From a virus, in the IMG/VR virus record IMGVR_UViG_3300031957_002643, positions 186,001-250,000 of that record: 64,000 nt of DNA. The stretch is one strand, 5' to 3'. Shown here in pieces: positions 45,476-46,892 of this stretch (positions are counted from its first letter, which is position 1; each line of letters opens with the position of its first letter). A model generated the notes under the pieces. The model was not told where the DNA came from and did no database searches. It saw nothing but the letters and a program-made list of their open reading frames with translations. The position numbers and the translations under genes are program-made.

Positions 45476-46267
45476 ATGAAAAGAGAACTGTCAAAAGAAC
45501 TTCCGCTCCGAGTGATCGGTGACGTGCACGGTGGCTTCGAGGAATTCGAAGCCATCGTTCGTCATGGTCTGGAACAAGGCCGCTTCATTGTGTGCCTTGG
45601 CGATCCTGAAGACCGTGGCCCGAACCCGGCCAAAGTGATCGAACTCATCATGGACCTTTATGATGAGGGCAAGGCCGACGAAGTTATGTCCAATCACAAA
45701 TGGAAGCACTATCGGTATTACGATGGTCGTCCGGTGATGCTCAATGACGAGCACAAGAAGACTCGTCGTGATATCAACTCCATGGGCCGTGAATTCGTTG
45801 AACGTTATCTTGAGTTCTGTAAACGAGTTCCGTGGTTTATCCGTCATGGTGATAACTTCTTCGCCCATGCATCATATCATCCGATTGCCTGTGAAGAAGC
45901 ACCGAGCCGGAAGTATCGCAAGATTCTTCAGGAACGCCTGATCTATGGCCAAACGAGTGGACGTATGGAAGGTGGATTACCAGTGCGACTGTTGGATTGG
46001 ATTGACCGTGTTCCTGAAAGCATGAATGTGTTTGTCGGTCACCACATCCTGTCAACCGAAGAAATCCTTCAGTTCCAAACGACTGGTGGGAAGGTCCACT
46101 TTGTTGACCTTGGTTGTCAGTCGCGTGAAGGTGGTCAACTGGCCTATGTTGACATCGATGAAGGAAAGATCACAGGTTCGTCCCATGATATCTCCTTCAA
46201 AGATGATCCTTCGGAATTTGGCGATTATCGTTTGAACGTTTCTGAGAGCAATGCGAATGGCGAGTAA
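45476..46267 (+). CDS. PPP-family phosphatase, similar to bacterial Pnkp phosphatase domain, 263 aa
   Basis: Motifs in order: VIGDVHGGFEEFEAIV (residues 13-28), CLGDPEDRGPNPAKVIELIMDLYDEGKADEVMSNHKWKH, where GDxxDRGP, the V-x-x-L-x-M helix and the (S/G)NH motif match the 2',3'-phosphatase domain of bacterial Pnkp. Later come IRHGDNFFAHASYHP and NVFVGHHILS. GNH is SNH and the third GD motif residue is altered (DPEDRG), so metal binding should be checked. Together with the kinase at 40321 it could restore RNA or DNA ends. Leaderless. Overlaps the convergent gene by 43 bp. Confidence 0.75.
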   Translation: MKRELSKELPLRVIGDVHGGFEEFEAIVRHGLEQGRFIVCLGDPEDRGPNPAKVIELIMDLYDEGKADEVMSNHKWKHYRYYDGRPVMLNDEHKKTRRDINSMGREFVERYLEFCKRVPWFIRHGDNFFAHASYHPIACEEAPSRKYRKILQERLIYGQTSGRMEGGLPVRLLDWIDRVPESMNVFVGHHILSTEEILQFQTTGGKVHFVDLGCQSREGGQLAYVDIDEGKITGSSHDISFKDDPSEFGDYRLNVSESNANGE

Positions 46268-46605
46268 AGACGGAACATCATCCGTTCTCTGAATTCGCTT
46301 GCTCCAAAAATTTCAATCATTAATCCCAACCGCGATCCTTCTGGACGCCCGGTTAGTACCAAATACACATCTCGAAAGAACGAACGGAGCCGTTCCTTTC
46401 CGTAGTGTTCCTTGCCAACCGCATAACAGATGGTCATATATTCTTCGGAAGTGTGACCATCTTCTAATTGCGGAAGAAGATCGTTCATTGCACCAATAAA
46501 AATGCGAGCACGCTCATGCAACTCGGCCACTGGTGCGTCGAGTTCAAAGGTATCGTCACTATAGTCAATTAGTGCGAAATAAGCTGCAAGTTCTCTGTAA
46601 TCCAT
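46225..46605 (-). CDS. Stand-alone synthetase anticodon-binding domain (class I LysRS/GluRS-like), 126 aa
   Basis: The segment AVGKEHYGKERLRSFFRDVYLVLTGRPEGSRLGLMIEIFGASEFRERMMF closely follows the C-terminal 'FxxxYxxLxGxxxGPRLGxxIxLxGxxxxxxR' helix bundle of class I LysRS and GluRS, which reads the anticodon. No HIGH or KMSKS catalytic domain is present, so it cannot charge tRNA. It lies 173 bp beyond a phage tRNA-Pro gene on the same strand. It might bind, protect or redirect host tRNA. No Shine-Dalgarno; +1 is predicted at the ATG. Confidence 0.6.
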   Translation of the reverse strand: MDYRELAAYFALIDYSDDTFELDAPVAELHERARIFIGAMNDLLPQLEDGHTSEEYMTICYAVGKEHYGKERLRSFFRDVYLVLTGRPEGSRLGLMIEIFGASEFRERMMFRLYSPFALLSETFKR

Positions 46606-46612
46606 AAATCGG

Positions 46613-46640
46613 ATTATACGTCATTTAGTGGGAAAGTCAA
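46613..46640 (-). promoter_or_regulatory. Sigma70-like leaderless promoter for anticodon-binding protein (minus)
   Basis: Minus strand TTGACT (plus 46635-46640), 16-nt spacer, perfect TATAAT (plus 46613-46618); predicted +1 at 46606, next to the ATG at 46605. The stop codon of the 40-residue ORF upstream (plus 46637-46639) is inside the -35 box. Confidence 0.7.
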
Positions 46641-46759
46641 CTGATCCGGTAACCAATTAACCAGCAATCGATTCTAAAGAACCATTTGCCATCTTTCTTA
46701 CCGGCCCCAATACGGATCATTCGATTATTTTGATCCAATTCGATCACATCAATTTTCAT
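46637..46759 (-). CDS. 40-residue ORF downstream of tRNA-Pro
   Basis: Encodes MKIDVIELDQNNRMIRIGAG... ending GKWFFRIDCWLIGYRIS. The aromatic beta-hairpin end (W-F-F-R-I-D-C-W-L-I-G-Y-R) resembles a common style of very small phage proteins. It starts 18 nt after the tRNA 3' end and ends inside the promoter for the next gene, filling the gap precisely, which supports a real gene. Shine-Dalgarno is weak. Confidence 0.5.
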   Translation of the reverse strand: MKIDVIELDQNNRMIRIGAGKKDGKWFFRIDCWLIGYRIS

Positions 46760-46777
46760 TTTAATATCTCAGGAAAA

Positions 46778-46854
46778 TGGTCGGAGTGGAGAGATTCGAA
46801 CTCCCGACCCTCTGGTCCCAAACCAGATGCGCTACCAGACTGCGCTACACTCCG
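46778..46854 (-). tRNA. tRNA-Pro (anticodon UGG)
   Basis: 77 nt on the minus strand. Acceptor arm CGGAGTG/CACTCCG, D-arm GCGC/GCGC, anticodon stem TCTGG/CCAGA with loop TTTGGGA (anticodon TGG), T-arm GGGAG/CTCTC with loop TTCGAAT, discriminator A and encoded CCA. All stems pair (one G-U in the T stem). It reads CCA and, by wobble, other Pro codons. Confidence 0.95.
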
Positions 46855-46861
46855 ATGACTA

Positions 46862-46892
46862 TATTTATAGTATAAACGTATACTTAAGTCAA
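46862..46892 (-). promoter_or_regulatory. Overlapping early and late promoters for tRNA-Pro
   Basis: Minus strand TTGACT (plus 46887-46892), 17-nt spacer, TATAAA (plus 46864-46869), giving +1 at 46857. The same -10 is part of an exact late box TATAAATA (plus 46862-46869) with +1 at 46856. Both starts are 2-3 nt before the mature tRNA 5' end. The -35 lies inside the last codons of the upstream gene. Confidence 0.65.

Follow-up and report, generated by a model that had tools for sequence, protein, structure and literature searches.

A conserved phage protein homologous to the anticodon-binding domain of class I lysyl-tRNA synthetase, encoded as a stand-alone gene

Gene content of the locus

The stretch of DNA analysed here (the window, 64,000 nucleotides) corresponds to bases 186001–250000 of virus record G000, which is 335,552 bp (335.6 kb) long. 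The closest named phages by the T4-like DNA polymerase of this record have Sinorhizobium and Agrobacterium as hosts; the enzyme is ~37% identical to its counterparts in Sinorhizobium phage Phosso and Agrobacterium phage Atu_ph07. The features at the locus, in window coordinates, are the following:

45476–46267, plus strand: calcineurin-like phosphatase (Metallophos, E 4.6e-6; phrog_246, E 2.7e-16)
46225–46605, minus strand: domain gene P0001, 126 aa, by homology a stand-alone class I LysRS anticodon-binding C-terminal helical bundle (NCBIfam, hhalign, AlphaFold2, PDB)
46613–46640, minus strand: predicted strong promoter for the domain gene, TTGACT-N16-TATAAT, 7 nt before the ATG (11/12 consensus)
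46637–46759, minus strand: 40-aa microprotein ORF of the phrog_38838 family, 18 nt downstream of tRNA-Pro
46778–46854, minus strand: tRNA-Pro(UGG), with CCA encoded at 46780–46778 (ARAGORN; Rfam, 67.8 bits)
46862–46892, minus strand: predicted tRNA-Pro promoter, read from the sequence
46884–47288, minus strand: 134-aa ORF, a syntenic neighbour kept in all three lineages discussed below

On the minus strand the transcription order is 134-aa ORF, tRNA-Pro(UGG), 40-aa ORF and 126-aa ORF. A first-pass annotation of this DNA had the order of the last three right and had assigned them to 46225–46892. The three elements do lie there, but the 46225 side falls inside the phosphatase gene (45476–46267, plus strand), which is convergent with the domain gene and overlaps its 3′-end by 43 nt.

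Homology and fold of the 126-aa protein

Residues 13–107 of P0001 match positions 424–517 of the 528 in the NCBIfam class I LysRS (LysRS-I) model NF001968 with an E-value of 5.9e-11; the match thus covers the C-terminus only. TIGR00467 is matched at E 3e-5. Two phage orthologs align with NF001968 at the same C-terminal positions (E 4.6e-8 and 2.2e-8), and a joint profile of the three phage proteins matches LysRS-I with an hhalign probability of 98.6%. The profile of the three proteins alone, searched against PDB sequences, returned nothing of note. At the level of single sequences, a Rhodobacterales LysRS-I is 43% identical to P0001 over 69 residues. No GluRS model matched P0001 in the NCBIfam search even at E 10, and the score against Pfam Anticodon_2 (PF19269), 13.8 bits, lies under the cut-off of 23.6, so P0001 does not qualify as a member of that family. 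A match of the domain to phrog_30022 (E 0.008) was set aside as chance or weak.

The phage proteins retain the conserved block LR..F...Y....G...G.R.G. Tyr 81, present in all three, is the LysRS-I residue, and T. maritima GluRS has Arg at this position. The near-invariant Trp of the LysRS-I motif LR(D/E)WF is replaced by Phe in all three phage proteins.

The AlphaFold2 model of P0001, whose input alignment included LysRS-I rows, is all helical, with a mean pLDDT of 85.9 and values above 90 in most of residues 30–110. When the model was compared with PDB by Foldseek, the top-ranked matches were all GluRS anticodon domains (rmsd ~2.2–2.6 over ~80 columns), the best of them with probability 0.99, E 0.34, TMq 0.53 and rmsd 2.2 over 82 columns. 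Since the Foldseek E-values are weak (0.3–1), the fold comparison supports the assignment rather than proves it. Against the viral library, the sole named synthetase among the matches was a Halogranum virus LysRS, at rank two. Both the helical model and the Foldseek matches correspond to the alpha-helix-cage fold.

Judged by homology, then, P0001 corresponds to the anticodon-binding C-terminus of class I LysRS, for which the match beats that to GluRS. The first-pass annotation had described a lone anticodon-binding bundle resembling "class I LysRS/GluRS" and had proposed an HMM and fold comparison. With that comparison run, the LysRS-I half of the likeness is borne out by the NF001968 and hhalign matches and the helical model, whereas GluRS is a relative at the level of fold only; the likeness is specifically to LysRS-I.

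The same annotation had called the domain catalytically headless. In agreement with this, full-length NF001968 found no other LysRS-I part in the whole record besides the domain gene, and the class Ic synthetase core model PF00749 had no match in the record. The protein itself, at only 126 aa, has no Rossmann catalytic domain with HIGH and KMSKS motifs of a class I LysRS enzyme.

Orthologs and origin of the domain

An IMG/VR scan with the single domain sequence gave no relatives; orthologs were reached through alignments and DNA-polymerase-linked contigs. They are encoded in IMGVR_UViG_3300008255_000160 (L036/L191) and in IMGVR_UViG_3300010316_000006 and 3300010368_000039 (L206 and L203). The latter two represent one lineage from two samples, giving three lineages overall including the window. 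The phage domain proteins are 124–128 aa long and 41–49% identical, with pN of 0.36–0.39 against near-saturated pS of 0.73–0.84. Because orthologs occur in two further lineages and, diverged as they are, each best matches LysRS-I, the domain gene is under selection and not debris. All are acidic proteins (pI 4.6–5.0), the N-terminal half carrying a net charge of −7 to −11 and the C-terminal half +1 to +4.

In a phylogenetic tree, the phage domains group together in a single clade, whose long branch lies next to alphaproteobacterial LysRS-I, with the order of donors not resolved. The tree is compatible with one capture of the domain; a Sphingomonadales-like HYGKERLR signature is only a hint as to the donor. 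The best 80 genomic relatives of the domain are LysRS-I genes with nearly all titles alphaproteobacterial. Together with the Sinorhizobium and Agrobacterium phage polymerases, these titles make the host suggested at first pass, an alphaproteobacterium, plausible. Only one of the 80 genome loci (L150) both lacks the two catalytic motifs and lies off a contig edge, making it a candidate for a bacterial stand-alone domain; this 175-aa ORF on a short MAG contig is possibly a frameshift. A tblastn search of named phages and plasmids with the domain gave only a chromid LysRS-I as a useful match, and none of the closest named relatives (Phosso, Atu_ph07, SCTP-2 and Vibrio 2.275) has the domain.

The domain gene is independent of its upstream neighbours

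In the first-pass annotation, tRNA-Pro, the 40-aa ORF and the domain gene were taken to act jointly as one unit. The elements adjoin in the window, and they do so again in L036, where the order is 134-aa ORF, tRNA-Pro, 42-aa ORF, an extra 107-aa ORF and the domain. However, in L206 and L203 the domain gene comes immediately after a 137-aa ORF, and both tRNA-Pro and the 40-aa ORF are missing from this syntenic slot. A sister lineage (G022 and G023) thus retains the domain gene at this position without either element. Moreover, the domain gene has a promoter of its own in all three lineages: TTGACT-16-TATAAT-7-ATG in the window, TTGACA-17-TATACA-6-ATG in L191 and TTGACT-17-TATAAT-9-ATG in L206, with spacings counted from the printed sequence. 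A promoter placed 6–9 nt before the ATG in three lineages predicts a leaderless early mRNA.

Members of the 40-aa family are also present in many phages where the domain was not found. The domain is absent in 15 further large contigs carrying the 40-aa ORF, and in the contigs tested the two do not travel together. The three elements are therefore not an operon inherited and expressed together, and we regard joint action as very improbable. The domain gene is independent of tRNA-Pro and the 40-aa ORF. That it is inherited apart from them is seen directly in the sister lineage, and its promoters suggest that it is expressed apart as well. On the most parsimonious view, tRNA-Pro and the 40-aa ORF make up a cassette that either entered upstream of an already self-sufficient gene or disappeared from one lineage.

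The 40-aa ORF matches phrog_38838 (E 9e-8). It shares 85% amino acid identity with its L036 relative (pN 0.09) despite saturated synonymous sites, and is therefore coding. Its relatives include ORFs of phiKZ and other Pseudomonas phages, and 75 IMG/VR loci. In 27 large contigs, eight copies of the family have a tRNA gene no more than 500 nt away, compared with at most 2.9 expected (simulated P 0.004), so that the association with tRNA genes is real but loose. This microprotein is found in very different phages and is about three times commoner near tRNA genes than expected (L036–L110, L029, L030, L032, L034). In phiKZ a tRNA-Thr gene is followed by an ORF of the 40-aa family, but a link from this arrangement to the domain was rejected, as the phiKZ genome lacks the domain.

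tRNA genes and their promoters

tRNA-Pro has a cloverleaf scoring above the Rfam threshold and an encoded CCA, as a functional phage tRNA should. Its putative promoter consists of TTGACT (46892–46887), a 17-nt spacer and TATAAATA (46869–46862), and it stops 7 nt short of the mature 5′-end. TATAAATA is a T4-late-like motif overlapping a −10 element, and a transcription start ~2 nt upstream of the mature 5′-end is a fair reading of this arrangement. The record has 44 ARAGORN tRNA genes, ~43 of them credible and covering nearly all isotypes; a second tRNA-Pro(UGG) lies at 323238. The motif [TC]ATAA[AG]TA occurs within 60 nt upstream of 11 of the 44 tRNA genes (0.2 expected), and TTGAC precedes 16 of the 60 genomic copies at 14–19 nt, mostly 17. 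Consequently, the tRNA-Pro promoter belongs to a genome-wide class, and the earlier proposal of overlapping early and late promoters for this gene is sound.

Many scattered tRNA genes of the record have private TTGAC-N17-TATAA[AG]TA promoters ending 7–18 nt before the mature 5′-end, which implies very short predicted leaders. In the whole record, about ten [TC]ATAA[AG]TA motifs stand exactly 5 nt before the ATG of ORFs of at least 70 aa (for example, at 32332, 63883, 111739, 244239, 259352 and 262653). At this distance transcription would start on the ATG, predicting leaderless late mRNAs. Outside the window, G000 254867–254942 is a tRNA gene with a CUA anticodon and encoded CCA, of the amber-suppressor type; among the 218 ORFs of 150 aa or longer, 30 still have TAG as their stop codon.

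Possible function of the domain

The record contains three tRNA-Lys genes (G000 168270–168981) and, 1.4 kb from them, a full-length T4 Rnl1-type ligase with an HKYDGS motif (G000 170394–171587). The tRNA-Lys gene at 168818 has a G2-U71 pair, which is essential for Borrelia LysRS-1 (PMC9976931), a rule that comes from Borrelia and may not hold in alphaproteobacteria. The identity elements of LysRS-1 include anticodon positions U35 and U36 (PMC9976931), and the T4 Rnl1 class of ligase repairs PrrC-cut tRNA-Lys (PMC10264068).

As the leading explanation, we propose that this phage lineage captured the class I LysRS C-terminal anticodon domain, most likely from an alphaproteobacterial host, and kept it as a small stand-alone protein, which would be expressed early from a transcript of its own that is probably leaderless. 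The domain may bind the anticodon arm of tRNA-Lys, for which we see about an even chance. LysRS-I ancestry, the LysRS-type Tyr and the use of U35 and U36 by LysRS-1 make tRNA-Lys, not tRNA-Pro, the predicted ligand. By holding host and phage tRNA-Lys, the domain would prevent host anticodon nucleases of the PrrC kind from cutting at the anticodon, and phage RNA ligase 1 would work alongside, rejoining tRNAs that get cut. Shielding is proposed because three tRNA-Lys genes and a nearby T4-type Rnl1 occur in the same phage. Such a pre-cleavage anticodon shield, a counter-defence complementing Rnl1-type repair, is a tentative and somewhat doubtful suggestion when considered as a role of its own; the leading explanation as a whole falls a little short of an even chance. 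We count in its favour that R108 and R112 are common to all three phage proteins, the matching LysRS-I positions not being conserved as basic. Counted against it are the ~60 kb between the domain gene and the tRNA-Lys/Rnl1 region and the lower confidence of the first ~30 residues in the AlphaFold2 model. A PADLOC search with the domain protein gave no match up to E 1, so that it does not correspond to a known anti-phage defence component.

The same LysRS-I homology and predicted early expression would suit the main rival, host takeover, in which the free domain sits on tRNA-Lys anticodons or imitates a portion of host LysRS, so that Lys-tRNA charging falls or host LysRS is displaced from its partners. 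The ancestral domain does recognise the anticodon on which the host enzyme relies (PMC9976931). Yet reduced charging would harm a phage that depends on Lys-tRNA and brings three tRNA-Lys genes of its own, and an isolated domain would be expected to have a lower affinity than the complete enzyme. We consider takeover unlikely.

Both tRNA-Lys binding and shielding are weakened by the acidity of the proteins and the loss of the near-invariant Trp. Together with the fast divergence and long branch, these features would be expected if tRNA binding had been lost and the helical bundle now bound a protein or only served as a scaffold. Retention of the LR..F...Y....G...G.R.G block and of the LysRS-type Tyr argues against such exaptation, which is likewise an unlikely outcome.

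The domain could instead present tRNA-Lys to Rnl1, a kinase or a modifying enzyme, as a chaperone or specificity factor that does not shield. The same phage does encode an Rnl1-type ligase and a P-loop kinase resembling polynucleotide kinase (window 40321–40836; phrog_505, or L-seryl-tRNA(Sec) kinase according to another library). However, the Rnl1 match spans almost the whole model, so the ligase probably has its own C-terminal tRNA-specificity domain, and the domain, Rnl1 and kinase genes are not adjacent. This makes a presenting role decidedly improbable.

If the domain binds tRNA-Lys, as the leading explanation has it, it would provide a straightforward way of testing whether phages protect tRNAs ahead of cutting. 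It would also connect hosts that have class I LysRS with a tRNA arms race for which T4 and E. coli are the main known example.

Comparison with known systems

tRNAs and tRNA repair enzymes are known from phages, as are, in some cases, whole synthetases. Viral class I LysRS with the same domain at the C-terminus are encoded by Halogranum tailed virus 1 (gene 197) and IMGVR_UViG_3300049988_000286; both keep the catalytic part, which the phage domain described here does not. The latter contig (499.6 kb) encodes a full-length class I LysRS of 580 aa with HIGH and KMSKS (L031, 3519–5261). The Halogranum gene (L213, 1090–2217) encodes a class I LysRS of 375 aa with the anticodon domain, probably without part of the catalytic region.

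Compared with LysRS-I/LysK (NF001968, TIGR00467; P. horikoshii 1irx), the C-terminal ~95 residues are homologous and carry LysRS-I rather than GluRS residues. However, the phage protein is acidic, only 124–128 aa long, without catalytic domain, HIGH or KMSKS, and with Phe for the LRxWF Trp. With GluRS Anticodon_2 (PF19269) it shares the fold, but its sequence scores below the Pfam cut-off and Tyr replaces the GluRS Arg.

HisZ and PoxA retain a catalytic domain. Like GluQ-RS/YadB, they are synthetase pieces put to other use, and GluQ-RS, too, retains its catalytic domain (PMC9437257). In contrast, the phage protein is an anticodon domain only. Bacillus phage v_B-Bak10 and B. cereus have a 42-aa class I LysRS-like fragment (PMC6145125), likewise a small ORF related to part of this enzyme, but it was assigned to the connective-peptide region, whereas the domain here corresponds to the anticodon region. 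With T4 Rnl1/Pnkp and PrrC (PMC10264068), the proposed arena, the tRNA-Lys anticodon, is shared, and the phage has a T4-type Rnl1. T4 Rnl1/Pnkp acts after cutting, whereas the phage domain would act before it; no nuclease was identified here.

In open-access papers we found no account of a phage keeping only the anticodon-binding domain of a synthetase under selection. Phage synthetase genes and a class I LysRS fragment from another region of the enzyme were known already, and what appears to be new is the conserved stand-alone anticodon domain.
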